31,023 nt of DNA, from positions 1 to 31,023 of IMG/VR virus record IMGVR_UViG_3300009703_000070; one strand, given 5' to 3'. This stretch comes from a virus. The notes under the pieces were generated by a model. That model made no database searches. It was not told the origin of the DNA and saw only the letters and a list, made by a program, of their open reading frames with translations. Below are positions 12,510-29,892 of the stretch, one piece after another; the first letter of the stretch is position 1; the number at the start of each line of letters is the position of its first letter. Made by a program: the position numbers and the translations under genes.

Positions 12510-12667
12510 TGAGAAAAACTATTTTATGTAACGCTTGTGATGCAAGTTATACCATATCTTATGATATGGATGACGAACTATATAAGAATAAGTTTTGTCC
12601 ATTTTGTGGCGAAGAGATACCTGAGAATGAATACAATATAGACGAGATAGAAGACATAGAGGAATAG
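12509..12667 (+). CDS. Small zinc-ribbon protein
   Basis: 52 residues, start codon overlapping the nrdB stop (TAATG). Two cysteine pairs, CNAC (Cys7/Cys10) and CPFC (Cys30/Cys33), form a clear zinc ribbon with a 19-residue spacer. An acidic tail (DEIEDIEE) follows. Such miniature zinc-binding proteins are frequent in T4-like phages and often unassigned; they can bind nucleic acid or host transcription machinery. Coupling to nrdB suggests early or middle expression. The function is not known. Confidence 0.62.
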   Translation: MRKTILCNACDASYTISYDMDDELYKNKFCPFCGEEIPENEYNIDEIEDIEE

Positions 12668-12670
12668 CAT

Positions 12671-13324
12671 ATGAACTTTGTAGCAAACTTACCACATATT
12701 AAGTGTTATGTAAAAAAAGAATATCTAAGAGATTTAGAAGACGGTCATGGTGAGTTTGTTGATGCAACAATCATAGCTGTTAAATCAATTCAAGGACGAG
12801 CATTATACTTTGAGGCATATCTACCAGAGTATGGTGCTTGTTTCGATAAGTTTCCATTGTCAGCTTTTGTATGGAAAAAAGATATTGTAGAAAGTGAACA
12901 ACTACCTTTAGACGTATTAGAGTTGTGGGATGCATTTAGTTATGAGGTACAAGTTTGGAAAAAAGTATTACTAGCTAATTGTGATGTAGATATAATGTTA
13001 AAAGGTGGTGGTAGAATGAAAGGTGAATATTTGTTTTCTATAGATAGTTGTCATAGTGATTTAAATACACCAAATCTAAATCTATCAGAGGTACCAGAAG
13101 AACATAAACAATTTAATTTTGGTAAATTAGATAACGGTCAATTTTTTGCACAACCAAATAATAGAATGTTATGGTACGAACAATCTAGTACGTCATCAGA
13201 TTTAAAAAGACCAGACTTCAAAGTATCAACTAGATACTTTACTTGCGAACAAGAACGTAAGTGGGCTTTTGGTGATGACGACAATTACTTTTACAAAGAA
13301 AAGAAAAGAGAAGATGTCGAATAA
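12671..13324 (+). CDS. Conserved marine T4-like phage protein, unknown function
   Basis: 217 residues, opening MNFVANLPHIKCYVKKEYL, a start I associate with a protein conserved in T4-like cyanophages downstream of nucleotide metabolism genes. It is mixed alpha/beta with several Trp/Tyr/Phe clusters and a distinctive KGGGRMKGEYLFSIDSCHSD segment (residues about 110-129). No signal peptide, membrane segment or catalytic motif is recognised. It overlaps the next small gene by 11 bases. Conserved position next to ribonucleotide reductase hints at early expression. Confidence 0.6.
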   Translation: MNFVANLPHIKCYVKKEYLRDLEDGHGEFVDATIIAVKSIQGRALYFEAYLPEYGACFDKFPLSAFVWKKDIVESEQLPLDVLELWDAFSYEVQVWKKVLLANCDVDIMLKGGGRMKGEYLFSIDSCHSDLNTPNLNLSEVPEEHKQFNFGKLDNGQFFAQPNNRMLWYEQSSTSSDLKRPDFKVSTRYFTCEQERKWAFGDDDNYFYKEKKREDVE

Positions 13325-13496
13325 ATATTGTTTAAACTGTGGTCAAGTACATGGAGAAATTTTTAATAGAGTAGGCACAGATGATGTTTATGTACCATTA
13401 CCTCTGTGGCAAAAAGTAAAAGACTATGATGGTAGAGAATATCAAATAGAAGTATGTAAGGTAGCGAGATATGAAAACACAATCAGCGAAAGCTAA
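13314..13496 (+). CDS. Small protein with CxxC, unknown function
   Basis: 60 residues from ATG 13314, which follows AGAGAAG; an in-frame GTG at 13269 would overlap far into the previous gene and I reject it. The N-terminus CLNCG (Cys6/Cys9) is half of a zinc ribbon, with a further Cys near residue 48 (VCKVARY), so metal binding would need other ligands. VYVPLPLWQKVKDYD gives a compact central part. It overlaps both neighbours, in a chain of small coupled genes. Confidence 0.55.
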   Translation: MSNKYCLNCGQVHGEIFNRVGTDDVYVPLPLWQKVKDYDGREYQIEVCKVARYENTISES

Positions 13497-13821
13497 AGGT
13501 CGTAGATTACAACAATGGGTAAGAGACCAACTTATAGATAAATTAATGATTAGTGAGGAAGACATAGAGTCTAGGTCTATGGGTGCCTCAGGTGAAGACT
13601 TAATGATGGCAAAAGATGCCAGACGTAAATTTCCATATAGTATCGAATGTAAAAATGTTGAAAAAGTAAATGTATGGGAGTCTTATGAACAAGCGAAAAG
13701 TAATGCAAAGAAAGGTGAACCATTAGTAGTAATCAAAAGAAATAAATCTAAACCTTTGGTAGTTGTTGATGCAGAATATTTTATTAATAACCATAAACCA
13801 AATTGTGTTGAAGATTTATGA
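13471..13821 (+). CDS. PD-(D/E)XK-type nuclease-like protein
   Basis: 116 residues. The motif order fits small PD-(D/E)XK nucleases: a basic N-terminal helix (KGRRLQQWVRDQL), then GASGEDLMM with candidate Asp43, then a beta strand ending SIECKN with Glu59-x-Lys61, and a helix with Gln74 (YEQAKSNA), as in Holliday-junction-resolvase or lambda-exonuclease-like folds. A C-terminal strand (PLVVIKRN) completes the core. Probable role: DNA processing, host DNA degradation or recombination. I recall similar small endonucleases in T4-like cyanophages. It overlaps the upstream gene by 26 bases. Confidence 0.62.
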   Translation: MKTQSAKAKGRRLQQWVRDQLIDKLMISEEDIESRSMGASGEDLMMAKDARRKFPYSIECKNVEKVNVWESYEQAKSNAKKGEPLVVIKRNKSKPLVVVDAEYFINNHKPNCVEDL

Positions 13822-14069
13822 ACCACGTATTTAAACACCCAAACTACTATAAAAATTTAAGAAAGATGAATGACTTCGAAAAAGAAGAAAAAACATCAGG
13901 TGGTGCTGTATTTGAAACAGGTGTTAAACAATCTAAAGAAAGTAAAGCAATCAGAAAAATTGCACAACCATTAATGGACAAGTATTGGAAAGATAGCGTT
14001 ACTAATTTACATAGAATATACAAAGTTGCTGAATATTTACATAAGAGAAGTAAAAGACATGGTAAATGA
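13818..14069 (+). CDS. Small basic protein, unknown function
   Basis: 83 residues, start overlapping the nuclease stop (ATGA). Charged and helical, with KNLRKMNDFEKEEKT and a basic C-terminus (LHKRSKRHGK). The GGAVFETG patch in the middle breaks the helices. No recognised family. The tight coupling to the nuclease gene suggests the two are made together; a nucleic-acid-binding partner would fit the charge but is not shown. Confidence 0.5.
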   Translation: MNHVFKHPNYYKNLRKMNDFEKEEKTSGGAVFETGVKQSKESKAIRKIAQPLMDKYWKDSVTNLHRIYKVAEYLHKRSKRHGK

Positions 14070-14229
14070 TTTACTAGAAGATTTAAAAAAATTAAGAAAT
14101 GATATGGTTGCTAAAAATTATCCATATCAACAACTAACAAACTTAATATATAAGTGGGAAGATAAATTAAGTGGACAAAAAACAGAAAGTGAAAAACTAC
14201 AAGATAATTTAGAACCAATTGATGAATAA
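14059..14229 (+). CDS. Small coiled-coil protein, unknown function
   Basis: 56 residues from ATG 14059. The frame could be read from TTG 14026, but the ATG is preceded by GAGAAG and is the better start. It is helical throughout: MVNDLLEDLKKLRNDMV, then a second helix around YQQLTNLIYKWEDKL, and an acidic tail. Overlaps with both neighbours (11 and 8 bases) indicate translational coupling. Function unknown. Confidence 0.5.
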   Translation: MVNDLLEDLKKLRNDMVAKNYPYQQLTNLIYKWEDKLSGQKTESEKLQDNLEPIDE

Positions 14230-14380
14230 CAATATATTATTTTATTTACTTATACTATACGCTACTGTATTTTGGTCATTTAGATTGGGAAATCTAATTG
14301 CATTAAAAACTAAAATATCAATACCAACATTTTTATTTTTTATGGCATTATTTAAATTAGTATGGAGTAGTTATGCTTAA
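14222..14380 (+). CDS. Small two-helix membrane protein
   Basis: 52 residues with two hydrophobic stretches, residues about 5-20 (ILFYLLILYATVFW) and 33-48 (ISIPTFLFFMALFKLVW), separated by a short basic loop. It overlaps the preceding and following genes by 8 bases each, which supports its being real. It lies at the junction between replication genes and the sugar cassette. It might be a membrane component related to the latter, or a holin-like protein; the sequence does not decide. Confidence 0.5.
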   Translation: MNNNILFYLLILYATVFWSFRLGNLIALKTKISIPTFLFFMALFKLVWSSYA

Positions 14381-15095
14381 CATATGTTTTGTGAAGTTTG
14401 GTGATAAAGTTCAAGGTTTTGATGCAGATAAACTTTTATATGATATGATTGAACCCATAATTAATAATGTAAAAGAAGATTTTGAAATATGGGTTGCCAC
14501 TGACAGACCAATATATAATATAACACTTAATCCAAAAATTAATTATATTCCTTTAACTAATCAAGACATAAAAGAACATGGTCATTGGACAAAGATATTT
14601 TTCTTTGACCCATCATATATAAAAGCAAAAGAGGGTGATACTACTGTTATCATGGATATTGATATGCAATGGAAGAAAGACCCAACACCTGTCCTCACAT
14701 ACCCAGTAAAACTTGGTGAGTTTGTTTCTATGGATAGATGGTGGAAAAGTGACCCAATGCCAATCAGCGGTAACTTATATAAGTTTAATTCATATGATTT
14801 TAAGTTTGTATATGATAACTACATGGAAGATTACAAGAAACATAAGAAGTATTATTATGAGAATAAAATAGTGCAGATGCCACAAGAAGGTGAACAGTAT
14901 TTTGTTTATGATCAGATAAAAGACAAATCACCTTGGTTCAATGTAAAACTGCAACCAGCAGAATGGTGTATGAAGATTCACTTAAAAAATGAAGAGAGAC
15001 AAAAAATGTATGAGGATAAATTTAAAGAAGTTACTGGTAAGGAGTATGGTAAGTGTATATTTGATGCGATATGGACTTATGAAAATATAAAATGA
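14373..15095 (+). CDS. GT-A-like glycosyltransferase
   Basis: 240 residues. The start, LNICFVKFGDKVQGFD, and the strand-helix pattern fit a GT-A fold, with the metal-binding Asp-x-Asp at residues 95-97 (VIMDIDMQWKKDP). A typical GT-A acceptor-side segment (GEQYFVYDQIK, then a Trp/Cys/His cluster) follows near residues 172-205. Predicted to transfer a sugar, possibly from the nucleotide sugar made by the genes downstream, onto a glycan, lipid or protein. GGAG lies 6 bases before the ATG. First gene of a six-gene chain with overlaps or tiny gaps. Donor and acceptor are unknown. Confidence 0.6.
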   Translation: MLNICFVKFGDKVQGFDADKLLYDMIEPIINNVKEDFEIWVATDRPIYNITLNPKINYIPLTNQDIKEHGHWTKIFFFDPSYIKAKEGDTTVIMDIDMQWKKDPTPVLTYPVKLGEFVSMDRWWKSDPMPISGNLYKFNSYDFKFVYDNYMEDYKKHKKYYYENKIVQMPQEGEQYFVYDQIKDKSPWFNVKLQPAEWCMKIHLKNEERQKMYEDKFKEVTGKEYGKCIFDAIWTYENIK

Positions 15096-15952
15096 ACATA
15101 ATATTTGGAGCAGGTAAATTTAGTAATGTACATCTTAAGGTATTAAAAGAAAAAGGAATACGTAAAGCTATACTTGCAAAAAAATCATCTTGGACAGATA
15201 AACAAAAACAAGAGTTTAAAAATAAACATGATGACATGAAACTCTTCTTTGATAATCAACCAAATATTTATAATGAAACAATTCATATAGTTACCCCTAG
15301 CAAAACACATGCGAAAGTTTTATACGAAAATAAAAATGCAAAAAAAATTTTTATTGAAAAACCAGCAGTTTTATTTAACTCAGATAGTGATTATATATTA
15401 AGTAATAAAGTAAATGAATTAATATGGCAATATGGATTAGTTGTATATCAAAATGATTGGTTATCACAAACACTACATTATAGAATTAATAAAGGCAAAC
15501 CTTATTCAATAGATTTTACGTATCATGTTAAGAACCCTAATAACGAAGATCACATAACAGAGATAGCAAGTCATGCTATGATACTGTTAAGTAAATGGTG
15601 TAGTGTTAATAGTAAAATTAAATTAAACTTTGAAAGTATTGGTGATCAATATACTGTTTTAAATTTTACAATAGATGACATAAAAGTTCATTTAAATATG
15701 TCAAATGGATTAAGAGATAAAAGTTTTTGGTCATTAAAAATAGACGATGAGTATTTTTCTACAGATAATATAGGACATGCTTTAATGTCAAATACAATGA
15801 ATGTAATGTTAAAAGATTTAAAACCTTTTACTGATTGGTATGAATCTAGTTGGTTAATACATAAGCTTAGATTAATAAAAGATGAAGATTTATATCAAGA
15901 GCATTTGAAAGGATATTATGAAAAGAATAAAGAAACTAGAACCAAGTATTAA
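15092..15952 (+). CDS. Gfo/Idh/MocA-family oxidoreductase
   Basis: 286 residues. The N-terminal Rossmann start (MNIIFGAGKFSNVHL) has a Gly-x-Gly dinucleotide motif, and IHIVTPSKTHAKVLYE followed by FIEKP (Glu89-Lys90-Pro91) is the diagnostic family signature. The C-terminal half would be the substrate-binding beta-sheet domain; it contains ITEIASHAMILL, where the family often has a catalytic His. The usual role is NAD(P)-dependent oxidation or reduction of sugars or nucleotide sugars. Start overlaps the previous stop (ATGA), and the end overlaps the cupin gene by 35 bases. It is a little shorter than typical bacterial members. Confidence 0.75.
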   Translation: MNIIFGAGKFSNVHLKVLKEKGIRKAILAKKSSWTDKQKQEFKNKHDDMKLFFDNQPNIYNETIHIVTPSKTHAKVLYENKNAKKIFIEKPAVLFNSDSDYILSNKVNELIWQYGLVVYQNDWLSQTLHYRINKGKPYSIDFTYHVKNPNNEDHITEIASHAMILLSKWCSVNSKIKLNFESIGDQYTVLNFTIDDIKVHLNMSNGLRDKSFWSLKIDDEYFSTDNIGHALMSNTMNVMLKDLKPFTDWYESSWLIHKLRLIKDEDLYQEHLKGYYEKNKETRTKY

Positions 15953-16298
15953 TCCAGCTACATTTAAAGATGGTAGAGGTATAATACAAACTTACTTTCC
16001 TCAAGATAAAAATATTGTAGAATGGAATTATATAGTTACTTTAAAAGACTCTGTAAGAGGACACCACTATCATAATGAGTTTGATGAGTATGTAATGTTT
16101 GTAGAGGGCGAAGGTGTATATACTGAATATACAGGCGATAAAGAGTATGTAACAACTGTTAGTGCTGGAACTTGTTTATACATACCCTCAGGTGTACCAC
16201 ATACATTTTATCCTACGGCAGATTGTAAAATGGTAGCAATGATTACTAAACGTTGGGATGATTGTAAAGAACCAATAACTAAATTTAAAATAAAATGA
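15918..16298 (+). CDS. Cupin-domain protein, possible sugar isomerase/epimerase
   Basis: 126 residues forming a single cupin barrel. Motif 1 is [20 protein letters not shown], with metal-ligand candidates His50, His52 and Glu57; motif 2 is [12 protein letters not shown] with His95. The N-terminal [11 protein letters not shown] resembles small cupins that act on dTDP- or GDP-linked keto sugars (RmlC/FdtA-like). In a cassette with Gmd it could isomerise or epimerise a 4-keto-6-deoxy sugar. AAAGGA precedes the ATG. It could instead be a small binding cupin with another ligand. Confidence 0.65.
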
Positions 16299-17302
16299 AG
16301 AGAGCTATAATATTTGGTATAACAGGTCAAGATGGTTCTTACTTAGCAGAATTATTATTAAAAAAAGGTTATACAGTTCATGGCGTTATAAGAAGATCAT
16401 CTACTTTTAATACGTCAAGATTAGATCATATCTATCAAGAACCATTTCAAAAAGATAGAAACTTTATACTTCATTATGGGGATGTGACAGACTCTTTATC
16501 AGTATCAAGAATTGTAAAAAATGTACAACCACATGAAATATATAATTTAGCAGCTCAGTCTCACGTTGCAGTATCTTTTGAAATACCTGAATACACAGCA
16601 AACGCAGATGCTATCGGTCCATTAAGAATTTTAGAAGCAATTAAGTATCATGGACTAAAAACAAAATTTTATCAAGCTTGCACCTCAGAAATGTATGGTT
16701 CAAGTCCGTCACCACAAAATGAAAATACACCAATGCATCCAGCAAGTCCTTATGGTGTAGCAAAACTATATGCATATTGGATTACTAAAAACTATAGAGA
16801 TGCGTATGGCATCTTTGCCTGTAATGGAATATTATTTAATCATGAAAGTCCTAGACGTGGTGAAACTTTTGTTACAAAAAAAATAGTTTCTGCATTAACT
16901 AAAATAAGAAATACAGAACCTAAAATATTATATCTTGGAAATCTTAATGCAAAAAGAGATTGGGGTCATGCAAAAGATTATGTTGAGGCAATGTGGTTAA
17001 TGTTACAACAAGATAAACCAGATGACTTTGTTATTGCAACAGGTAAACAATACTCTATAAAAGATTTTGTTAATATGACAGCAGATGAATTAGATATGGA
17101 TATCACTTGGAAAGTTGGAGAGGACGGTGAGGAAAGAGGTTATTATAAAAATAAAGCTGTTGTTCAATGTAGTCAAAAATACATTAGACCTTTAGATGTA
17201 AATACTTTGATGGGTGATGCTACTAAAGCAAAACAAATATTAAAGTGGAAACCTAAACACGATATAAAATCTTTGATAAAGGATATGATAAACAATGCTT
17301 AA
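16295..17302 (+). CDS. gmd: GDP-mannose 4,6-dehydratase
   Basis: 335 residues of extended SDR fold. It converts GDP-mannose to GDP-4-keto-6-deoxymannose, the precursor of GDP-fucose, GDP-rhamnose and GDP-perosamine. Seen: the NADP-binding [15 protein letters not shown] (residues 8-22), the family-typical [15 protein letters not shown] (33-47), the catalytic Ser131/Glu132 in QACTSEMYG, Tyr153-x-x-x-Lys157 in SPYGVAK, and [17 protein letters not shown]. The motif match is high enough to name the enzyme. It is coupled by overlaps to the cupin upstream and the SDR downstream. Phage-encoded Gmd is known in marine T4-like phages. Confidence 0.92.
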
Positions 17303-18185
17303 TATAGTAATGACAGGTGGAAATGGATTTTTATTAGGAAATTATATTAAAGATTATAATCATAATTTTATTGCACCTAAAAGTACAGAGGTTAATTGGG
17401 TTACAGGTAAAGGTATTGATACTTTACCAGATAAACCAGATGTCTTTATTCATAGTGCTGCGATATATGGTGGATTACCTTTTAATCAAAACAATCCAAA
17501 AAGAGTGTTATTAGACAATACTAAAATGAGTGTAAATGTATTTGAATATATTTTTAAAGCAAAACCAAAAAAAGTTATAATGATAGGGAGTTGTTGTGCA
17601 TATCCAAATAGAGATGAAAAATTTACAGAGGATATGTTAGGAGAAGGTAGACCACAAAGTACAGTTGAGTTATACGCAATGAGTAAATTATGGCATTTAG
17701 CTGCGTGTGAGCGTTTAGTAGATGATTGGACTTGTTTAGTATTAGCAAATATGTATGGTTTAGGTGAGATATATAAACATGAAGAGTCCTCACACGTTAT
17801 TGGTTCAATAACAAAAAAGATAATGAAAGCAAAAGAGGATAATACGGATGTTCAATTACTAGGAACTGGCACACCTACAAGACCTTTAGTATATGTGAAA
17901 GATGTATGCGATGTTATAGATTTTTTTGCTACAAGTCGTTATACACCAAATGGTGCATATAACGTTGGAGAGGAAGAAGGCATTACTATAAAAGAAATGG
18001 CAGAAACTATAGCAGATGTATTACAATATAAAGGTAAAATTTTATGGGGAGACCCTAAAGATAATGGTTCATTACATAGAGCTATGAATTATGATAAGTT
18101 AAATAAAATACATCCTTATAGAATAAGGACTACATTAAGAGAAGGTTTAAATGAAAGTATTAGTTTTATCAGCTCACCCAGATGA
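17295..18185 (+). CDS. GDP-L-fucose synthase-like SDR epimerase/reductase
   Basis: 296 residues. Cofactor loop TGGNGFLLG (7-15), then GSCCAYP (98-104), where the Ser99/Cys101 spacing matches the active-site Ser and Cys of GDP-fucose synthase, and the Tyr127-x-x-x-Lys131 pair in [16 protein letters not shown] and [11 protein letters not shown] also match that family. Next to Gmd, the likely product is GDP-L-fucose or a close 6-deoxyhexose. It overlaps gmd by 8 bases and the deacetylase by 35. Sequence length is slightly below E. coli Fcl. A related 4-reductase activity is possible. Confidence 0.82.
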
Positions 18186-18729
18186 TTTAGAATTATCTTG
18201 TGGTGGTACAATTTCTAAAATGAAATCTATGGGTGCAACTATAGATAATTTTATTCTTTGTCCTTATCAAGATCATAAAAAATATCTAACTACAACATCA
18301 GCAATATTAGGATTTAACCCAATACTAAACGAGGAAAAAGAAAGACCAAAACTAGATCATAACTTAATAGGTAAAATAGAAAAACAATTAGATATGCCAA
18401 GTTATGATTTACTTATAACTCATTGGAAAGAAGATTGGCATCAAGACCATAGAATATGTCATGATGTAGCAAATACATTAAGACGTAAACAACCATTAGA
18501 AGTTTGGTATATGAATGCTTTTACTTATTGTCAAAAATATACTACTTTTGAAGCAAATGTATTTTCTGATATATCAAATCATTTTATAAACAAAAGAAAA
18601 GCAATAGAATGCTATAAGAACGTAAACTCTAGATGGGTTGATGATGTTGAGGCCATGTCTAAATTTAGAGGTTCTTTTATTAACGTAGAACACGCAGAGG
18701 TCTTTAAAGCAGATACTATATTGTTCTAA
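18151..18729 (+). CDS. PIG-L/LmbE-family deacetylase
   Basis: 192 residues. The N-terminal [13 protein letters not shown] (8-20) gives the family's zinc-binding His9 and Asp12 with catalytic Asp11, and HWKEDWHQDHR (91-101) supplies the third ligand His100. Members remove N-acetyl groups from GlcNAc-containing glycolipids, mycothiol precursors or polysaccharides. As the last gene of the sugar cassette it may modify an amino sugar on the host surface or on a phage-made glycan. AGAGAAGG lies before the ATG. The protein is a little shorter than typical members but the motifs are intact. Confidence 0.82.
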   Translation: MKVLVLSAHPDDLELSCGGTISKMKSMGATIDNFILCPYQDHKKYLTTTSAILGFNPILNEEKERPKLDHNLIGKIEKQLDMPSYDLLITHWKEDWHQDHRICHDVANTLRRKQPLEVWYMNAFTYCQKYTTFEANVFSDISNHFINKRKAIECYKNVNSRWVDDVEAMSKFRGSFINVEHAEVFKADTILF

Positions 18730-18740
18730 TAAATATATCT

Positions 18741-19022
18741 ATGGATTTATTTTTTACACTTCTAGTCGAATTTGGATTACCTGTAGCATCAGCTACAGTA
18801 ATGGGAGTTTTCATATACATCATTCTTAAATACATATTAGATTCAGTAATAGGTCAAGTTAATAGTATTCATGGTATCATCATGGGATTGGATAATAGAA
18901 TAAAAACAATGAACAATGACATGATAAAACTAGACGTACAGATATCAGAGGCATTAGACTTAAAACAAGATGAGGACAGAATCGCTAGAGCAGATGGTAA
19001 GACAGATGCACGAAAGGATTAA
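18741..19022 (+). CDS. Membrane/coiled-coil protein, copy 1 of tandem pair
   Basis: 93 residues: an N-terminal membrane segment (residues about 5-30, VEFGLPVASATVMGVFIYIIL) and a cytoplasmic or periplasmic helical domain (GLDNRIKTMNNDMIKLDVQI). It aligns without gaps to the next gene over about 70 residues, sharing MGxFIYxIxK, GLxxRI and NDxIxL. The arrangement suggests tandem duplication and a hetero-oligomeric membrane complex. It lies between the sugar cassette and the curli-like cluster. An AATAAATA at 18728-18735 is too close to the start codon to serve as its promoter. Holin is possible but unsupported. Confidence 0.6.
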   Translation: MDLFFTLLVEFGLPVASATVMGVFIYIILKYILDSVIGQVNSIHGIIMGLDNRIKTMNNDMIKLDVQISEALDLKQDEDRIARADGKTDARKD

Positions 19023-19270
19023 TGACAGTTGTTGAAATACTAAATCAATATGGATTTGCCACACTAGCAGCTGTGGCTATGGGATACTTTATATATTTCA
19101 TATACAAATTTACTACAGAAAATATCAAGAAAAAGTTAAGTGAGGCAAATGTCGCACTAATTGGATTACTAGACAGAATTAGAATGCTTGATAATGACTT
19201 AATTAGACTACGATCTAAGTTACAGACAGCAAGACAGATCAAAGAAAATCAAAAAAAGAAAAAAGATTAA
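19022..19270 (+). CDS. Membrane/coiled-coil protein, copy 2 of tandem pair
   Basis: 82 residues, start overlapping the previous stop (TAATG). Membrane segment at residues about 10-30 (GFATLAAVAMGYFIYFIYKF), then a charged helical region (LLDRIRMLDNDLIRLRSKL) and a Lys-rich tail. It is clearly paralogous to the gene before it, with the same motif spacing but little sequence identity outside the shared positions. The two are translationally coupled, consistent with a fixed stoichiometry. The intergenic gap to CsgF is only 27 bases, so they may be transcribed with the curli-like genes. Function unknown. Confidence 0.6.
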   Translation: MTVVEILNQYGFATLAAVAMGYFIYFIYKFTTENIKKKLSEANVALIGLLDRIRMLDNDLIRLRSKLQTARQIKENQKKKKD

Positions 19271-19297: not shown

Positions 19298-19780
19298 ATG
19301 AAAACACTTAATATGGTGTTTATGGGCCTATTGTTTTATGTGTTTTCGACTTCCATAATCACAGCTTCAGAATTGGTACATGAATTTAAGAACCCGTCAT
19401 TTAGTGGTAATGGGTATTCTAGTCATGTATTATCTATTGAACAATTACAATTCAATAGAAAAAAAGAAATAAAAGATGATGAAAAATCTGCAGCTGCAGC
19501 CGCAGAAAGAAAAGCGAATAATACTACTATCAATAAGTTTATTAAGAACGTTGAAAGTAGAATATATGCAAACTTATCAAAACAGTTAGTAGATAATATG
19601 TTTGGTACAAGTTGCGATAGTAGCACAACAACTTGCCCGACAAGTGGTACTGCTAATGTAGAGGGTTCTACGATATATTGGGTAAAGGACTCATCTACTG
19701 AAATAATTACACTAACGATTACAGACCCAAATGGTAATGTAACCACAATGTCTGTACCATTAGGTGACTTTAACTTTTAA
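19298..19780 (+). CDS. CsgF-like curli assembly protein
   Basis: 160 residues. A signal peptide (1-23, ending IITA) leads to a mature N-terminus, SELVHEFKNPSFSGNGYSS, which matches E. coli CsgF's FRNPNFGGNP segment, the part that inserts into the CsgG pore. A following SIEQLQFNRKK matches CsgF's NSAQAQN region. An Ala/Lys/Asp-rich linker, a helical part and a C-terminal beta hairpin (ITLTITDPNGNVTTMSV) complete the CsgF layout. It is 22 residues longer than E. coli CsgF, and has a Cys pair (Cys106, Cys113) in the extra part. It lies directly before csgG, and would act at the outer membrane. Confidence 0.82.
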   Translation: MKTLNMVFMGLLFYVFSTSIITASELVHEFKNPSFSGNGYSSHVLSIEQLQFNRKKEIKDDEKSAAAAAERKANNTTINKFIKNVESRIYANLSKQLVDNMFGTSCDSSTTTCPTSGTANVEGSTIYWVKDSSTEIITLTITDPNGNVTTMSVPLGDFNF

Positions 19781-19786
19781 GGATAT

Positions 19787-20623
19787 ATGAAATTATTATT
19801 AGTTTTATTATTAGGATTTATATTGTCAGGTTGTGCGTCAACTCAATCTAATAAAATAAAACATGGTGCTGAACCTTATATTGAGGGAACAACAACACTT
19901 GAGAAGTTAAAAGAAATACCTGATTTAGATCAACCGCAGATAACAATTGCGGTATACGAATTTACAGACCAGACAGGTCAGAGAAAACCAAACCCAAACT
20001 TTTCTCAACTGTCAACTGCTGTGACGCAAGGACCAGATGTCTGGGTCATAAGTGCTTTGAAATCAGTCAGTAATGGCGATTGGTTCAAAGTGGTAGAAAG
20101 AAAAGGATTGTCAAATCTAGTCAAAGAAAGACAATTGATTAGATCAACAAGAGAGTTATATGATGGCGAGAGAGATAATGTTTTAAAACCATTAGTCTTC
20201 GCTGGATTAATTGTTGAAGGTGGTATTGTAGGATATGACAGCAATGTTGCAAGTGGTGGCGTTGGTGCAAGATATTTTGGAATAGGACTAAGTGAACAAT
20301 ATCGTACAGACCAAGTAACAGTTTCGTTAAGACTCGTTGCAGTACAAACAGGTGAGATATTATTATCTGTTTCAGCAACAAAAACAATTGCTAGTTATAG
20401 TAAGGGTGGTGATGTATTCAGATTTTTAGATATGAGCACAAAAGCATTAGAGTTTGAATCAGGTCAAGCAACAAATGAACCTGTTAATTATGCAATAAGA
20501 ACAACAATAGAACACGCTGTACTACAAATGATATATGAAGGTGTTAATAAAAAATTATGGAAAATGGAAGGCGTTAAATCAATAATAACTGAGCCTAAAA
20601 TTTCAGGTTCAATAAGAGGATAA
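19787..20623 (+). CDS. CsgG-like outer-membrane curli secretion channel lipoprotein
   Basis: 278 residues, one more than E. coli CsgG. A lipoprotein signal ends in LSGC (Cys16). Conserved CsgG stretches include VYEFTDQTGQRKPNP (56-70), FKVVERKGLSNLVKERQLIR (100-119), GYDSNVASGGVGARYFGIG (149-167) and TGEILLSVSATKTI (188-201). It should form a multimeric beta-barrel pore that exports unfolded amyloid subunits. In the pore constriction loop, E. coli Tyr51, Asn55 and Phe56 align to Asn69, Gln74 and Leu75 with one extra residue, so gating may differ. The gap to CsgF is only 6 bases. No CsgE is visible nearby. Confidence 0.92.
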   Translation: MKLLLVLLLGFILSGCASTQSNKIKHGAEPYIEGTTTLEKLKEIPDLDQPQITIAVYEFTDQTGQRKPNPNFSQLSTAVTQGPDVWVISALKSVSNGDWFKVVERKGLSNLVKERQLIRSTRELYDGERDNVLKPLVFAGLIVEGGIVGYDSNVASGGVGARYFGIGLSEQYRTDQVTVSLRLVAVQTGEILLSVSATKTIASYSKGGDVFRFLDMSTKALEFESGQATNEPVNYAIRTTIEHAVLQMIYEGVNKKLWKMEGVKSIITEPKISGSIRG

Positions 20624-20626
20624 AAC

Positions 20627-21310
20627 ATGAAAACATTAATTAAATTCGTTATGTGTTTGATGATGTTTTCGCCAGTATTGGCAAACGATATTTATGTTAC
20701 ACAATCAGGTAATACTTTAACTTTTGATGTATTGCAAGATGGTCAAAATAACACAATAGGTTCATCTGGTACACCATCAACTGTAACAGGTGCTACTACA
20801 AATATGAACATTGACCAAATTGGTAACTCTAACGTATTAACCTTTGATATTAATGGTGCATCATATACAGGTACATTTAGCACGACTGGTAACAGTAACG
20901 ATATTGATTTAAAATGTGATAGTGGTGGGTCTAACTCATCGTGTGCTAACGTTACAGCATCAATTGTATGGGTTGGTTCATCTAACGATATTGATATAGA
21001 TGTTGGTGAAACTTCAGATGCAACAGGTGCTACAATTAATATATCAGGTGCATCTGGTAGTGACTCAAATGTTGTGGCTGGAACAATAGATGGTACAAGT
21101 GTTATCTTTACTTTATCAGTAAACGGTGACACAAATAATTTCTTGGTTGATATAGACGGAGATGGTGATAGTATAGGTCACACTTACATACACACTCATA
21201 CGGGTTCTATTGCAGATGTAGATATTACACAATCAGGTATCTACGATAATATGATTACTTTAACAACAAGTGGTGATAACCACAATATCGATATTATACA
21301 GAGAGACTAA
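20627..21310 (+). CDS. Secreted curlin-repeat (amyloid-like) protein, short
   Basis: 227 residues. A signal peptide ends at SPVLA (residue 19). The mature protein has irregular curlin-type strands with Asn, Gln and Gly at turns: VTQSGNTLTFDVLQDGQNN (24-42), MNIDQIGNSNVLTFDI (60-75) and VDITQSGIYDNMITL with IDIIQRD (198-227). The middle is Ser/Gly/Asp-rich with two Cys residues (97, 106). Such repeats form cross-beta amyloid fibres in CsgA and CsgB. Starting 4 bases after the CsgG-like gene, it is the natural export substrate. Repeat regularity is lower than in CsgA, so a nucleator (CsgB-like) role is also possible. Confidence 0.75.
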   Translation: MKTLIKFVMCLMMFSPVLANDIYVTQSGNTLTFDVLQDGQNNTIGSSGTPSTVTGATTNMNIDQIGNSNVLTFDINGASYTGTFSTTGNSNDIDLKCDSGGSNSSCANVTASIVWVGSSNDIDIDVGETSDATGATINISGASGSDSNVVAGTIDGTSVIFTLSVNGDTNNFLVDIDGDGDSIGHTYIHTHTGSIADVDITQSGIYDNMITLTTSGDNHNIDIIQRD

Positions 21311-21311
21311 T

Positions 21312-21416
21312 ATGGGTACATTAACATTTATATTATTTGTAGGAATGGTAATATATGCGGCTCGTAAGTTTTATACTTGGGTTCATACTCTTAACCCTTA
21401 TATCTTTACAAAGTAG
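21312..21416 (+). CDS. Possible 34-residue membrane peptide
   Basis: A short ORF starting 2 bases after the curlin stop and ending inside the FecR gene in another frame. Residues 4-16 (LTFILFVGMVIYA) are hydrophobic enough for a membrane segment. There is no clear ribosome binding site beyond AGAGA. It may be a real coupling peptide that carries ribosomes to the FecR start, or a chance frame. Low certainty. Confidence 0.3.
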   Translation: MGTLTFILFVGMVIYAARKFYTWVHTLNPYIFTK

Positions 21417-22473
21417 TCTTGCATCTATAGGTCAAGTTTCTTTATACGAAGGTAATGCAGCTATCGATAGAAAAGATGGTGATCAAGGTATTACCGTAGA
21501 AAAAAATTTAGATGTATTTTCATATGATACTGTAAAGACAGGTAATGGTAAAGTTGGTATAGAATTTATCGATAATACTAGAGTTGATGTTACTGAACAT
21601 TCTAAACTTCTTATTGATGAATTTGTTTATGACCCAAATACTAAAAAAGGTAAACTTTCATTAAAAGCAAAACTAGGCACAGTAAGATATGCCTCAGGTC
21701 AAATTGCAAAAAACTCAGCAACAGATGTATTAATAACAACACCAACAGCTACGATTGGTGTTCGTGGTACTGATTTTACAATGACGATAGATGAGATAGG
21801 TTCATCTACAATTATTCTTTTACCAAGTTGTGATACAAATGGCAATTGTTTTGTAGGTGAGATTAGTGTTGAGTCAGATGCAGGTCAAGTAATATTAAAT
21901 CAAGCATTTCAAGCAACAGTGGTTGATACAGTTTCTAGTAAACCATTAACACCTGTACTTTTAGAGTTAGATGAAGAAATGATTGGTAATTTGTTAATTG
22001 TATCTAAACCAGCTGCAATAGAACAAATGCAAAATGAAGAGGGATTAAATGAAGTCGCAGATGCTTTAGATATTGATTTCTTACAATTTGATGATTTAGA
22101 AGTAGATCATCTTGAAGAAGATGAAAGTCAATTTGCAACAGGTCTTGACATAGATTTTTTAGAACAAAACTTTTTAGCAGATATCTTAGCACAAATTAAC
22201 AAAGAATTAGCAAAGTCAATGAGGTCAGAATTTGAGAAACAAAAATCAGTTGGTGATATTCAACTAGGAAAAAATACTGAGACTGGTGTTATAATATTAG
22301 ATGAAGACCCTCAATGGGTATGGATAAGAGAAGATGCAAGTGGTTCATATATAGAATTAAGACTTGATAAAGAGTATGGTTATGTTCTAAATATAATTCA
22401 AGGGGAGTTTGAACAATACGATTTCGAACTAGGAGGCGTGGATAATGCGATCACCATACAACAAATTAATTAG
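21355..22473 (+). CDS. FecR-domain exported protein
   Basis: 372 residues. A signal peptide (about 1-24, ending SSLA) predicts export. A FecR domain spans about 55-145: YDTVKTGNGKVGIEFID, then TRVDVTEHSKLLIDEF, and TTPTATIGVRGTDFTM (128-143), the family's signature. An acidic repetitive part around 225-275 contains two similar ALDIDFLQF/GLDIDFLEQ segments. The last 30 residues (NIIQGEFEQYDF, then DNAITIQQIN) resemble a curlin repeat. FecR-domain proteins are often encoded next to CHASE2 cyclases in bacteria, as here. It may act as a periplasmic sensor, cap or adaptor. Overlaps the next gene by 29 bases. Confidence 0.82.
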   Translation: MRLVSFILGFILLTLISLQSSLASIGQVSLYEGNAAIDRKDGDQGITVEKNLDVFSYDTVKTGNGKVGIEFIDNTRVDVTEHSKLLIDEFVYDPNTKKGKLSLKAKLGTVRYASGQIAKNSATDVLITTPTATIGVRGTDFTMTIDEIGSSTIILLPSCDTNGNCFVGEISVESDAGQVILNQAFQATVVDTVSSKPLTPVLLELDEEMIGNLLIVSKPAAIEQMQNEEGLNEVADALDIDFLQFDDLEVDHLEEDESQFATGLDIDFLEQNFLADILAQINKELAKSMRSEFEKQKSVGDIQLGKNTETGVIILDEDPQWVWIREDASGSYIELRLDKEYGYVLNIIQGEFEQYDFELGGVDNAITIQQIN

Positions 22474-23914
22474 TGTTTTATTAGGCGCACTATTATTAGG
22501 TGTTCTTATTTTATTTAATGCTCGTGCTTATGCTAACACAGCACATATACAATATACTGATACCAATATGTACAATAAAATAAAAGGTGAATTGGAAAGT
22601 GAAGGTTATACAGTTACGGGTACAAGTGGTGGGTCAGTAAGTTTAAGTGATTTTACTGGCAAAGATTTACATATCAATGTTGCAGGTAACAACAACTGTG
22701 GTAACAATTGTAAAACAGCATATGAAACTTATATAGGTGCAGGTGGTAATGTTATTATTGCAGGTGATGGCACTCATAATTCAAATAGGTCAGGTAGTAT
22801 TGAGGCTCTTATAGAAAGTAAATTAAATGTTGGTGCGATTACATTATTTACTAATAATGCAAACTACTTAGCACACGCACATGGTAGTCAATATTCAGAT
22901 ACATCTAATTATTGGGTTACAAGAAACGTATTTAGAATGACCTCAGGTGGTACACCATTAGCTGATAATTCTAGTGGCAGTCTTAGCACTTGGAGAAACT
23001 GGGCAGTATATAGTTATGGTAGTAATGGTGGTAAACTAATAGTAACATTTGACCAGGCACAATTTAATCATACTGGTAATAACAACAGCTCAACTTGGTC
23101 TACAAGATTTTATAACTTCTTAACAACAACACTATCACATGAAAGTGTAACATCAGCAACCATAAACATAACACCAACAACAAGTCAATCATCCATAATT
23201 ACAACTGATAAAGCAAAAACAGGTAATGGTGTAAAGATGAATGTTGATGGTGATAGCAATACCATTAATATCGAACAACACGGTGAGAATAATTTTATCA
23301 TAGGAACAGATTGGTCAAGCGATAGTCAAATTACGGGTAACAATAATGTTCTTAATATCGATCAAGGAAACGTAACTACAAGTGGTAATAGTGGTAACAA
23401 TGGAATTGCGTTAGATGTAACAGGCAATACAAATACACTTAATATATCTCAAGGTGATTATGGAACTGACACAGGCGATCATAGAATATGGTTAGATATT
23501 GATGGTAATACAAACACAATGACATTGACACAAAGAAATGATGGTACAACTTCAAGTGAGCATTACATGAATTTAGATATAGATTCAGGTTCAAATATTA
23601 TCACAATGCAACAACTTGATAATGGCGATAAAACATTATTCCTAGATATAAACAATTCTAATAATACAGTAGATATAACTCAGTCTGGCACAGGTGAACA
23701 CTTTTTAGACTTAAAATTAGATACAAGTAACTACGCTCACGATGTTGATATAACACAACAAGGTTCAGGTAATCATGCAGGTCGTGTTGAATTAGATGGT
23801 TATTCTACTGATTTTGATTTGATGCAACAAGGTTCTACTGATCAAGATTACAATATAAATATGACTTGTGGCACAGTTTCAGGCTGTACGTTATCAACAA
23901 CGCAAGGTAATTAA
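22445..23914 (+). CDS. Large secreted protein with C-terminal curlin repeats
   Basis: 489 residues. A signal peptide ends near ARAYA (30). Residues about 33-235 form a globular N-terminal domain with HIQYTDTNMYNKI and GGNVIIAGDGTHN (100-112), reminiscent of ThuA/glutamine-amidotransferase-like folds, no catalytic residue confirmed. Residues about 262-475 hold eight curlin-type motifs, Asn-x-x-x-Ile/Leu-x-Gln, with Gln at 278, 307, 336, 363, 390, 413, 439 and 462, so spaced 23-29 residues. AGGAGG at 22431-22436 lies 8 bases before the ATG. A plausible adhesin-like amyloid, exported by the CsgG-like pore. Confidence 0.75.
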   Translation: MRSPYNKLISVLLGALLLGVLILFNARAYANTAHIQYTDTNMYNKIKGELESEGYTVTGTSGGSVSLSDFTGKDLHINVAGNNNCGNNCKTAYETYIGAGGNVIIAGDGTHNSNRSGSIEALIESKLNVGAITLFTNNANYLAHAHGSQYSDTSNYWVTRNVFRMTSGGTPLADNSSGSLSTWRNWAVYSYGSNGGKLIVTFDQAQFNHTGNNNSSTWSTRFYNFLTTTLSHESVTSATINITPTTSQSSIITTDKAKTGNGVKMNVDGDSNTINIEQHGENNFIIGTDWSSDSQITGNNNVLNIDQGNVTTSGNSGNNGIALDVTGNTNTLNISQGDYGTDTGDHRIWLDIDGNTNTMTLTQRNDGTTSSEHYMNLDIDSGSNIITMQQLDNGDKTLFLDINNSNNTVDITQSGTGEHFLDLKLDTSNYAHDVDITQQGSGNHAGRVELDGYSTDFDLMQQGSTDQDYNINMTCGTVSGCTLSTTQGN

Positions 23915-25752
23915 TGAAATTTTTAACACATTGGACTACAGCATTTATAACATTATTTTTTCTTACTTACATAGGTTTACAAGACATATCATTCAAAGAA
24001 ACTCTAAGACTTAAATCATTTGATTATCTTCTAGCAAATGAAGAGAAGTCGCAATCTCAAGACATAACAATCATAACAATAGACGAACAAGCAATAGAGA
24101 AGTATGGTCAATGGCCTTGGCCTAGAGAAACACTTGCTAAACTAATTATAGATTTACGACAAGCACAAACAGGTATAATTGTTATGCCTATCTTGTTTTC
24201 AGAGTCAGATAGATTTGATGGTGATAAAGTATTTTGTGAAACACTAACTTATGGAACTGTTATAGCACAAACAGGTACAACACAAAAAAGAACATCTAAC
24301 CCAGTACCAAGAGGAGTTGCAAAGATAGGAAACCCATTATCATTTTTATTTGAATGGCCTGGAATGGTTGGTCCATTACCAGAACTAGCAGAATGTGCTA
24401 ATGGTGTAGGAGTAATTAATACAGCACCAGAGATAGATGGTGTCGTTAGAAGAGTACCATTATTAATGAAAATAGGTGATGAAGTATATCCTAACATGGC
24501 GATTGAAACAATAAGAGTTGCAGTAGGTGACCCTAGTTATCAAGTTAAGGCAGATGAGTTTGGTGTTATTGCAATGAGAGTACCTGGTTTCGATACAATC
24601 AAAACAGATGCAAATGCTAGAATATGGATTAGGTGGAACAAAAAGTTTAAAACTATATCAGCAGCTAGTAATGATTTTTCACAAGCTGCAGGCACTACAG
24701 TTATTATCGCAATGACGGCAGAGGGATTAGGTGGTGTAGTTGCAACACCAACTGGTGAACAATATGATTATACAATATCAGCAAACACATTACAAACTGT
24801 TTTAGATGGTGAGACTATCAAAAGATATGATGCGTTTTATGAATTACTAATTGCATTTATAGTAGGTATTGCCATGATTGTTTTAGTAAGATATTCAGCA
24901 TATTGGATAATAGGACTTGCAATTATATTTGTATCTGTATCATTACCTGTATATACAAATATGTTTTTTGTTCAAAACTTAATGTTAGTAGATGTAACAT
25001 GGATACTACTTACATTTTTAGTAGTTGCTTTTCATAGTACGTTTTTAAGATTTATATTAGAGTTTAAATTAAAACAACAAATAAGAAAACAGTTTGAGAA
25101 GTATCTAGACCCTAGACAAGTAGCAATATTAGTCAAAGACCCTAGTAAATTAAAACTTGGTGGTGAAAGAAAAGAGATGAGTTTCTTGTTCATGGACATT
25201 GTAGGTTTCACACCAATATCAGAATACTATAAGAACAATGATGACCCAGAGGGATTGGTCAATGTCATTAACGATTATTTAAATCGTATGAGTAAGATAG
25301 TACTAAAGAATGGTGGAACGATAGACAAATACATGGGTGATTGTATCATGGCATTTTGGAACGCACCATTGGATTGTCCTAATCACGCAGAGATGGCAGT
25401 CAAGACATCTATTGAATGTGCTGAAGAGACAGATAGAATTAAGAAAGAGTTTAAGGAAAAAGGATTACCAGATATCAATATAGGTTCTGGTGTTAATACT
25501 GGTACTTGTATAGTTGGGAATATGGGTAGTGAGATGAGACTAGACTATTCTGTTATTGGGGATGCAGTTAATCTGGCCGCAAGACTAGAAGCACAAACTA
25601 GGAACTACAAAGACGAGAATGGTAAAGTTACACCTACTTTATATTCATCATATACAAAAGAACAATTAGAGAACATTAAATCAATAGAAGTAGATAAAAT
25701 AAAGGTCAAAGGAAAAGAAGAATTGATTACAATCTTCAAACCTGATGTTTAG
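23914..25752 (+). CDS. CHASE2-transmembrane class III nucleotide cyclase
   Basis: 612 residues. A membrane segment (about 7-24), an extracytoplasmic CHASE2 sensor (about 30-300, with TIDEQAIEKYGQWPWPRE at 55-72), three membrane segments (about 306-378), a short linker, and a class III cyclase domain (about 415-612). Active-site residues are present: metal-binding Asp428 (FMDIVGF) and Asp476 (YMGD), base-recognition Lys472 and Ser546, transition-state Asn553 and Arg557 (VNLAAR). Lys plus Ser/Thr at those sites favours ATP, so cAMP. The start overlaps the curlin-protein stop (TAATG). It is a full-length enzyme that would act in the inner membrane. Ligand unknown. Confidence 0.92.
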   Translation: MKFLTHWTTAFITLFFLTYIGLQDISFKETLRLKSFDYLLANEEKSQSQDITIITIDEQAIEKYGQWPWPRETLAKLIIDLRQAQTGIIVMPILFSESDRFDGDKVFCETLTYGTVIAQTGTTQKRTSNPVPRGVAKIGNPLSFLFEWPGMVGPLPELAECANGVGVINTAPEIDGVVRRVPLLMKIGDEVYPNMAIETIRVAVGDPSYQVKADEFGVIAMRVPGFDTIKTDANARIWIRWNKKFKTISAASNDFSQAAGTTVIIAMTAEGLGGVVATPTGEQYDYTISANTLQTVLDGETIKRYDAFYELLIAFIVGIAMIVLVRYSAYWIIGLAIIFVSVSLPVYTNMFFVQNLMLVDVTWILLTFLVVAFHSTFLRFILEFKLKQQIRKQFEKYLDPRQVAILVKDPSKLKLGGERKEMSFLFMDIVGFTPISEYYKNNDDPEGLVNVINDYLNRMSKIVLKNGGTIDKYMGDCIMAFWNAPLDCPNHAEMAVKTSIECAEETDRIKKEFKEKGLPDINIGSGVNTGTCIVGNMGSEMRLDYSVIGDAVNLAARLEAQTRNYKDENGKVTPTLYSSYTKEQLENIKSIEVDKIKVKGKEELITIFKPDV

Positions 25753-28844: not shown

Positions 28845-29341
28845 TGTCAAGAGAACCAATAACAAATAATATGGGCCAGGTCGTAGATAATAGTTCAGCA
28901 ACACTATTATTCTCTGAGGTTTTAGACAAGGTACATAAAGCAAAAACAAAATCTCAAAAAGTTAAAATACTTAGAGATCATAACAACGCATCTTTAAGAA
29001 TGATTATCAAATCATCTTTCGACCCTAAAATAAAATGGGCAATGCCTAGTGGTGATGTTCCTTTCATGCCAAACGATGCACCTGCTGGTACAGATCATAC
29101 AAGACTAGCGATTGAAGCAAAGAAACTATATCACTTTATTGAAGGTGCAGATAACGATACGCCTAAAGTTAAAAAAGAGAATATGTTTATTCAAATGCTA
29201 GAGGGATTGCATGAGTCAGAAGCAAGACTTGTTATCGCAGCTAAAGATAAAAAACTACATCAAGTTTACAAAGGATTAAGTAAAGAAGTTGTTAAAGAAG
29301 CTTTTAATTGGAATGATGACTTTGTAAATCCAAATTCATAA
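28844..29341 (+). CDS. Conserved T4-like phage protein (possibly DUF6433), unknown function
   Basis: 165 residues. VLDKVHKAKTKSQKVKILRDHNNASLR (starting near residue 26), the turn FDPKIKWAMPSGDVPF, and a C-terminal helix pair (ENMFIQMLEGLHESEARLVI) match a protein I recall immediately downstream of RNase H in T4-like cyanophages; the DUF number is from memory. No enzymatic motif is seen. The start overlaps the RNase H stop (TAATG) and its own stop overlaps the next start, so it is co-translated with replication genes. Confidence 0.65.
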   Translation: MSREPITNNMGQVVDNSSATLLFSEVLDKVHKAKTKSQKVKILRDHNNASLRMIIKSSFDPKIKWAMPSGDVPFMPNDAPAGTDHTRLAIEAKKLYHFIEGADNDTPKVKKENMFIQMLEGLHESEARLVIAAKDKKLHQVYKGLSKEVVKEAFNWNDDFVNPNS

Positions 29342-29892
29342 TGAACAAAACAGATTATATTGAAACTTATGAAAATAAATTAGATAGCAAAACTTGTAAT
29401 ACTTTGATATCTTATTTTGAACAAAACGCATTATGGGATACTTCAACCTTTTCATCTAATACAAAAAATACTGGTAATAATAGTGTTAGTATGAAAGAGT
29501 ATTGGATTACACCAAAAGATCAATACTATGATGTGTTATCAAAAGCTTTTAAGCGTGGTGTAGATGAGTATATAAAAAAACATACTCGTATAACACCAGT
29601 TGCATACACAGCTTTTAGATTAAATCATTATACAGAGGGTGGCTTCATGAGAAACCATGTAGATAATATTTACAAAAGTCATGGTCAACAATATGGATAC
29701 CCTCACTTAACTTCTTTAATATTTTTAAACGACAACTATGAAGGTGGTGAATTTGTAATGTGTGATGAAACATACAAACCAAAAATCAAGCAGGGTTCAG
29801 CAATTGTATTCCCTAGCAATTTCATGTTTGATCATGAAGTAAAAAAAGTTACAAAAGGAAATCGATACAGCGTAATGACGTGGATTATGTAA
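29341..29892 (+). CDS. 2OG-Fe(II) oxygenase (prolyl-4-hydroxylase-like)
   Basis: 183 residues. The double-stranded beta-helix iron ligands are His106-x-Asp108 (MRNHVDNIY) and His165 (FMFDHEVKKV), with the 2-oxoglutarate-binding Arg175 (KGNRYSVMTWI) ten residues later. HYTEGGFM and SLIFLNDNYEGGEF match the P4H-like fold. Such enzymes hydroxylate amino-acid side chains or nucleobases using O2 and 2-oxoglutarate, and are widespread in marine T4-like phages. Substrate unknown. Overlaps both neighbours by a single base (TAATG), and the next gene also encodes an oxygenase of a different type. Confidence 0.85.
   Translation: MNKTDYIETYENKLDSKTCNTLISYFEQNALWDTSTFSSNTKNTGNNSVSMKEYWITPKDQYYDVLSKAFKRGVDEYIKKHTRITPVAYTAFRLNHYTEGGFMRNHVDNIYKSHGQQYGYPHLTSLIFLNDNYEGGEFVMCDETYKPKIKQGSAIVFPSNFMFDHEVKKVTKGNRYSVMTWIM

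Follow-up and report, generated by a model that had tools for sequence, protein, structure and literature searches.

The window analysed here, the whole 31,023-nucleotide stretch of IMG/VR virus record IMGVR_UViG_3300009703_000070, carries a cluster of curli-type genes in which one curlin subunit bears an exchangeable N-terminal domain, hereafter the head. The window is phage DNA, as its T4-like genes for primase, ribonucleotide reductase and exonuclease show, and the closest cultured relative of the phage is Pelagibacter phage HTVC008M; because of this kinship, we take the sequence to derive most likely from a marine phage infecting SAR11, a bacterium abundant in the ocean. Six consecutive open reading frames (ORFs) at 19298-25752 either lie 6, 3 and 44 bases apart or overlap by 29 and 1 base, in agreement with a first-pass annotation that had described six tightly packed genes with gaps of at most 44 bases. 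The motif GYDSNVASGGVGARYFGIG and the FKNPSF segment that it reported are both present, and profile hidden Markov models (HMMs) from Pfam for CsgF, CsgG, FecR, CHASE2 and Guanylate_cyc all scored above their curated cut-offs. The six genes are therefore real, but the conserved unit comprises eight, since two small upstream genes at 18741-19022 and 19022-19270 (up1 and up2) accompany the cluster in nearly all related loci that cover that stretch. The features of the unit are as follows:

18741-19022, plus strand: up1, first gene of the unit; 93 amino acids (aa), with one N-terminal hydrophobic segment and a likely coiled coil
19022-19270, plus strand: up2, a paralogue of up1; 82 aa, matching phrog_18771 (E 4e-29)
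19298-19780, plus strand: CsgF homologue; 160 aa, signal peptide recognised by inspection, Pfam CsgF 8.3e-15 over nearly the whole profile
19787-20623, plus strand: CsgG homologue; 278 aa, lipobox LSGC, Pfam CsgG 3.9e-55
20627-21310, plus strand: first curlin-like subunit; 227 aa, headless, CsgB-like
21355-22473, plus strand: exported FecR-domain protein; 372 aa, FecR 3e-9 at residues 58-148, phrog_37870
22445-23914, plus strand: second curlin; signal peptide, exchangeable head, curlin stalk and C-terminal Cys-pair cap
22532-23164, plus strand: head of the second curlin (protein P0007); about 210 residues (residues ~30-240), alpha/beta according to a low-confidence AlphaFold2 model
23165-23911, plus strand: curlin stalk of the same protein; strand repeats every 23-29 residues and a C-terminal cap C-x5-C
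23914-25752, plus strand: CHASE2 cyclase; CHASE2 at ~23962-24867 (2.3e-39) and a class III nucleotide cyclase domain at ~25171-25734 (Guanylate_cyc 3.3e-19)

The earlier description of two exported curlin-repeat proteins is supported for both, except that in the second curlin the curlin part is limited to the C-terminal half. This stalk comprises six N-x-h-x-h-x-Q strands at a spacing of 23-29 residues (shuffle p 0.0002) and matches phage proteins labelled 'Curlin associated' in BFVD; the match of the protein to Pfam Curlin_rpt is weak (E 0.04), and that of its HTVC008M homologue reaches 5e-8. An AlphaFold2 model of modest quality (mean predicted local distance difference test score, pLDDT, 60) shows the stalk as regular strand pairs, with pLDDT mostly 70-80, and the head as alternating strands and helices (b-a-b-a-b) nearest to the N-terminal (GIFT) domain of IFT52 (Foldseek E 0.011), so that at low confidence the head may adopt a GIFT or glutamine-amidotransferase-like fold. 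The alpha/beta-type head of the window gave no PA14 match in Pfam. The ratio of nonsynonymous to synonymous substitution rates (dN/dS) is 0.31 in the head and 0.13 in the stalk.

Related phages retain the stalk and the Cys-pair cap at its C-terminus but differ in the kind of N-terminal part: the same operon slot holds second curlins with alpha/beta, PA14, F5/8 type C or other domains, or with no head at all. PA14 heads score above the Pfam cut-off in cultured HTVC008M and in contig L055, an F5/8 type C head occurs in L262 (1.4e-10), and the second curlins of phage Melnitz, L008, L064 and others are headless. Heads were found in 35 of 63 distinct complete phage second curlins and in none of the 26 bacterial curlins examined, a difference (Fisher p 1e-7) that ignores kinship and draws on similarity-biased samples. 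Profile-profile comparison with hhalign resolved several unrelated head families; the alpha/beta and PA14 groups have only a 38-residue linker in common, and some other families have modules in common. Single-linkage clustering of full-length heads had merged families through the shared linker and was replaced by an analysis of the first 165 residues and by the hhalign comparison. Divergent phages (L245, L257, L261, L262, L265, L267, L268 and L283) carry the same cluster with multi-module heads of up to ~500 aa, whose modules are shared within the group.

Pairwise comparisons demonstrated cassette-like exchange of heads between phages against an otherwise fixed unit. In contigs L015 and L019, which come from separate metagenomes, the csgF, csgG, first-curlin and fecR products are 98.7, 99.3, 99.6 and 99.2% identical, respectively, and the second curlins share 100% identity in the signal peptide and 97.6% in the stalk but only 29.8% in the head; at the DNA level, identity falls from 94-100% in the sequences flanking the head to ~50% inside it, with sharp boundaries. 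L054 and L055 are at least 99% identical in csgG, fecR and cyclase, yet one encodes a headless second curlin of 297 aa and the other a PA14-headed protein of 443 aa. Between HTVC008M and L042, the second-curlin gene has been replaced whole within surroundings that are 91-95% identical. The converse pattern is seen between L041 and the window, whose heads are 94% identical and whose CsgG proteins are only 79% identical.

The machinery that would export such a subunit is recognisable by homology, and the first-pass proposal of phage-borne curli-type export with amyloid-type subunits is well supported by the CsgG and CsgF HMM matches and the curlin strands. CsgG aligns with the E. coli CsgG structures 3x2r and 6l7a (phmmer 1.5e-52) and is predicted to be an outer-membrane secretion pore. 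CsgF retrieved no true match among PDB sequences, including by profile search; its N-terminal F-x-N-P-x-F-x-G-x-G segment is common to phage and Hyphomonas CsgF in our alignment. The first curlin matches NCBIfam CsgB below the family cut-off (E 1.7e-4), contains hxhxQ strands (p 0.0006) and is conserved at its N-terminus (ANDIYVTQSG) and C-terminus (VDITQSG...DIDIxQxD). No CsgE, CsgC or CsgD was found in the ORFs scanned, the window being part of the phage genome. A pore or lysis model, in which CsgG (with CsgF) forms an outer-membrane pore for uptake or a lysis trigger and a diverged CsgF no longer pairs with CsgG (PMC9004378), gains from this lack of CsgE and from one published AlphaFold comparison of Melnitz CsgF (PMC9004378). 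Phage CsgF nevertheless fits its Pfam family over nearly the full profile, keeps the F-x-N-P-x-F-x-G segment together with Hyphomonas, and sits beside five further genes, two curlins among them, under purifying selection, and we therefore consider the pore or lysis model very unlikely.

Selection and synteny likewise bear on whether the cluster functions at all. Every gene of the unit is under purifying selection (dN/dS 0.07-0.18, with the higher value given above for the second-curlin head), and the order up1/up2 plus csgF-csgG-curlin-fecR-curlin-cyclase is found in nearly all related viral loci covering the region; gene order is kept in more than 100 viral loci. One clade (L054-L062) has the order up-csgF-up-csgG, and some more distant loci have one or zero up genes inside the fetched flank. 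Because the cluster also occurs in cultured phage genomes, it is not an assembly chimera with bacterial DNA, an artefact raised earlier as a possibility. A vestigial or mobile passenger cluster without present function could account for its absence from freshwater fonsimyophages (PMC7029224), but is largely refuted by the dN/dS values on all genes and sits poorly with an order conserved across divergent phages and with published expression (PMC9599517); we give it next to no credence. Two loci carry insertions between fecR and the second curlin. In L038, a SoxY-SoxZ fusion with a signal peptide (12692-13432; SoxY 5.8e-25, SoxZ 2.6e-15) occupies this slot, possibly as a sulfur-metabolism gene, and in L072 two large genes (11382-17254; 507 and 1446 aa) that look like phage structural or fibre proteins precede a short second curlin.

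The last component of the unit is a potential signalling pair. In the FecR protein, the FecR domain directly follows the signal peptide and the cytoplasmic anti-sigma N-terminus of FecR regulators is missing, so the protein is not a Fec-type regulator; it probably acts in the periplasm or at the surface as a partner of either the fibre or the CHASE2 sensor. Its C-terminus ends in NxITIxQ in nearly all homologues, but we do not claim it as a curlin repeat: profile-profile comparison with both curlins gave a probability of <1%, and the C-terminus of the AlphaFold2 model (pLDDT about 30) is uninformative, the model being too poor to use. In the cyclase, the metal-binding aspartates D428 and D476, the substrate lysine K472 and the transition-state arginine R557 are invariant in the alignment, and the best PDB matches are adenylate cyclases (3r5g CyaB, 3.5e-41); the complete active site reported earlier thus stands, and an enzyme of the adenylate-cyclase class is well supported as the predicted product.

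The accompanying statement that cyclic AMP (cAMP) signalling is attached to the cluster proved weaker than the enzyme assignment. Class III cyclases were found in none of 114 SAR11 genomes, cNMP_binding domains in 7 of 117 SAR11-order genomes (all in long ORFs, of 870 aa in six and 372 aa in one), and cNMP-binding proteins in none of three phage genomes, a search that covered the cNMP_binding family. As none of these SAR11 genomes encodes a class III cyclase and cNMP-binding domains are rare, the cyclase product has no recognised receiver. The cNMP-binding domains in L145-L148, which lie within long ORFs (mostly 870 aa) of a minority of SAR11-order genomes, are candidate cAMP receptors. The architecture of the enzyme has precedents: in Sinorhizobium meliloti, deletion of CHASE2 from a cyclase leads to constitutive cAMP production, and work on the targets of Clr has included the FecR-domain protein SMc02177 (PMC5498481). 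A FecR-domain gene lies in 8 of 20 alphaproteobacterial CHASE2-cyclase neighbourhoods, several times adjacent and divergent, and csgG in none; with no background rate for comparison, recruitment of FecR and CHASE2 as a pair is suggestive only.

We propose that the unit encodes an adhesive surface fibre of exchangeable binding specificity on the infected cell, a reading for which we judge the chances to be about even. It would constitute a self-sufficient, phage-encoded curli-type (type VIII) fibre system in which, by homology, CsgG would form the outer-membrane pore and CsgF would gate it or couple it to the fibre, the headless first curlin would nucleate or form the fibre, and the second curlin would carry its N-terminal head outward on the curlin stalk. 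The head may bind glycans or neighbouring cell surfaces and so hold the infected cell to new hosts or particles, where progeny would meet hosts, and the exported FecR protein and CHASE2 cyclase may sense the fibre or the periplasmic state. This reading also draws on the conserved gene order, the purifying selection on every gene, the surface-sugar cassette next to the unit and published expression in ocean metatranscriptomes (PMC9599517). A headed curlin is physically plausible, because engineered fusions of CsgA to a VHH domain reach the surface and appear on curli (PMC9477280). Those fusions resemble the window protein in placing a folded binding domain on a curlin subunit, but they are artificial and carry the domain at the C-terminus, whereas the phage head is natural and N-terminal. 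The interchange of unrelated heads, some of carbohydrate-binding type, points to specific adhesion. We more tentatively envisage an adhesin-display system in phages of SAR11 and other aquatic bacteria, in which a fixed curli operon offers the second curlin as a cassette slot, recombination exchanges heads in the manner of tail-fibre tips, infected cells catch particular neighbours or surfaces, and the periplasmic FecR/CHASE2 cyclase pair translates the state of the fibre into a nucleotide signal within a host that lacks its own class III cyclase.

Exchangeable heads also weigh on two other roles for a surface fibre. Superinfection exclusion, proposed in PMC9599517 and suggested again by the first-pass annotation, holds that an amyloid coat, perhaps with the products of the surface-sugar genes directly upstream of the unit, hides receptors from competitors, the heads fine-tuning attachment of the coat. 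Such a role is possible, but a passive coat needs no exchangeable heads, and the swapping of cassettes on an otherwise fixed machinery, with unrelated heads interchanged on one subunit, is left unexplained; we hold it to be unlikely. Alternatively, the fibre may anchor the infected cell, virions or lysis debris to particles or to organisms other than sibling hosts, promoting dispersal or sinking. The general carbohydrate-binding folds among the heads would suit this role, although the host cells are planktonic, and we rate it distinctly unlikely.

Several observations count against specific adhesion as the function of the unit. Fibre, amyloid and adhesion have so far been shown in none of these phages, and CsgE is lacking both from the ORFs scanned and from the published modules (PMC9599517). 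Infection by Melnitz proceeds without clumping in cytograms or transmission electron microscopy (PMC9004378), which, given that the Melnitz second curlin is headless, does not test the headed form. The head is not essential, as 28 of the 63 second curlins are headless, and a head of 200-500 residues must cross the narrow CsgG pore unfolded. The window's head, moreover, has no identified ligand and a fold assigned at low confidence.

The cluster itself is already known. CsgF and CsgG, with an unexplained cluster, were reported in pelagimyophages in 2020 together with a proposal of sibling capture (PMC7029224); the complete set, FecR and cyclase included, was described in myo- and podophages in 2022, in a study that also reported its expression in ocean metatranscriptomes and assigned it to an alphaproteobacterial source (PMC9599517); and for the cluster of the OM43 phage Melnitz, a lysis-related pore was proposed in the same year (PMC9004378). 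The first-pass remark that curli-related genes had been noted in pelagimyophages was thus correct but understated the record, in which all six genes were already published (PMC9599517). That pelagiphage type VIII secretion module consists, like the window unit, of small upstream genes, CsgF, CsgG, CsgA/B, FecR, CsgA/B and adenylate cyclase, and CsgE, CsgC and CsgD are absent there as well. The words 'lectin', 'PA14' and 'adhesin' do not occur in its text, and neither the head nor its swapping is mentioned; both are new relative to that study, although an earlier report in a preprint or subscription paper is possible. HTVC008M (KC465899, 7562-13807) has the same gene order, with CsgG 80% and cyclase 81% identical to the window and a PA14 head in place of the alpha/beta head; Melnitz (MZ577097, 50731-56876) also keeps the order, with CsgG 57% and cyclase 47% identical and a headless second curlin.

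Bacterial relatives suggest where the unit came from. CsgG, CsgF and curlin repeats are common to the window unit and the E. coli csgBAC/csgDEFG system, to which the phage unit adds FecR, the CHASE2 cyclase, up1/up2 and a headed curlin. A closer counterpart lies on a 705-kb bacterial contig of Hyphomonas sp. TMED17 (L087, 9486-15509), where csgF-csgG-curlin-fecR-CHASE2 cyclase run in one direction, with a single headless curlin, no up1/up2 and a CsgG 44% identical to that of the window; published work, by contrast, places FecR and cyclase outside bacterial type VIII secretion operons. The gene set on the Hyphomonas contig suggests such an operon as the source of the phage unit, to which the headed second curlin and up1/up2 would have been added. 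CsgG is essentially absent from SAR11-order genomes, with one strong match among 247, on a 3-kb phage-like contig of a Pelagibacter metagenome-assembled genome (MAG). These findings suggest that the virus may install a surface organelle and a cyclase that its host does not itself encode. What curli genes do in ocean phages has been a puzzle since 2020, and a headed, swapped curlin turns this question into a concrete and testable one: the head would be the binding part, and HTVC008M is a cultured PA14-headed phage. A natural curli-display system would also be of interest to curli engineers.

The two small upstream genes are related to each other and to phrog_18771 (up1, E 1e-33), with ~25% identity between them and invariant F24, L50, R53 and D60. 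Judging by position, they are probably the one or two ORFs named 'histidine kinase' in PMC9599517; unlike that description, the matching small genes lack histidine kinase support, with HisKA or HATPase matches in 0 of 18 members at E<=10 and PDB matches to coiled coils only. A resemblance to small phage holins was considered, but Pfam returned no match and we make no such claim. As for control of the cluster, the late-promoter motif TATAAATA occurs at chance counts and nowhere upstream of the cluster, and sigma-70 and terminator scans gave background levels only. A Gp23 search for phage typing was uninformative (3 of 20 records matched, mostly fragments). One MAG labelled 'Rhodobacteraceae' (G003) contains the cluster, up1/up2 included, on three different contigs (L084, L178 and L179); these are probably phage contigs binned together, and hint at further host groups.

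Just upstream of the curli unit lies the surface-sugar cassette mentioned above:

15092-18729: oxidoreductase-like, cupin sugar isomerase-like, GDP_Man_Dehyd/epimerase (3e-139), second epimerase and PIG-L de-N-acetylase genes

Genes for 2OG-Fe(II) oxygenases also occur near the cluster, in the window at 29341-29892 and in L025 at 18265-18876.

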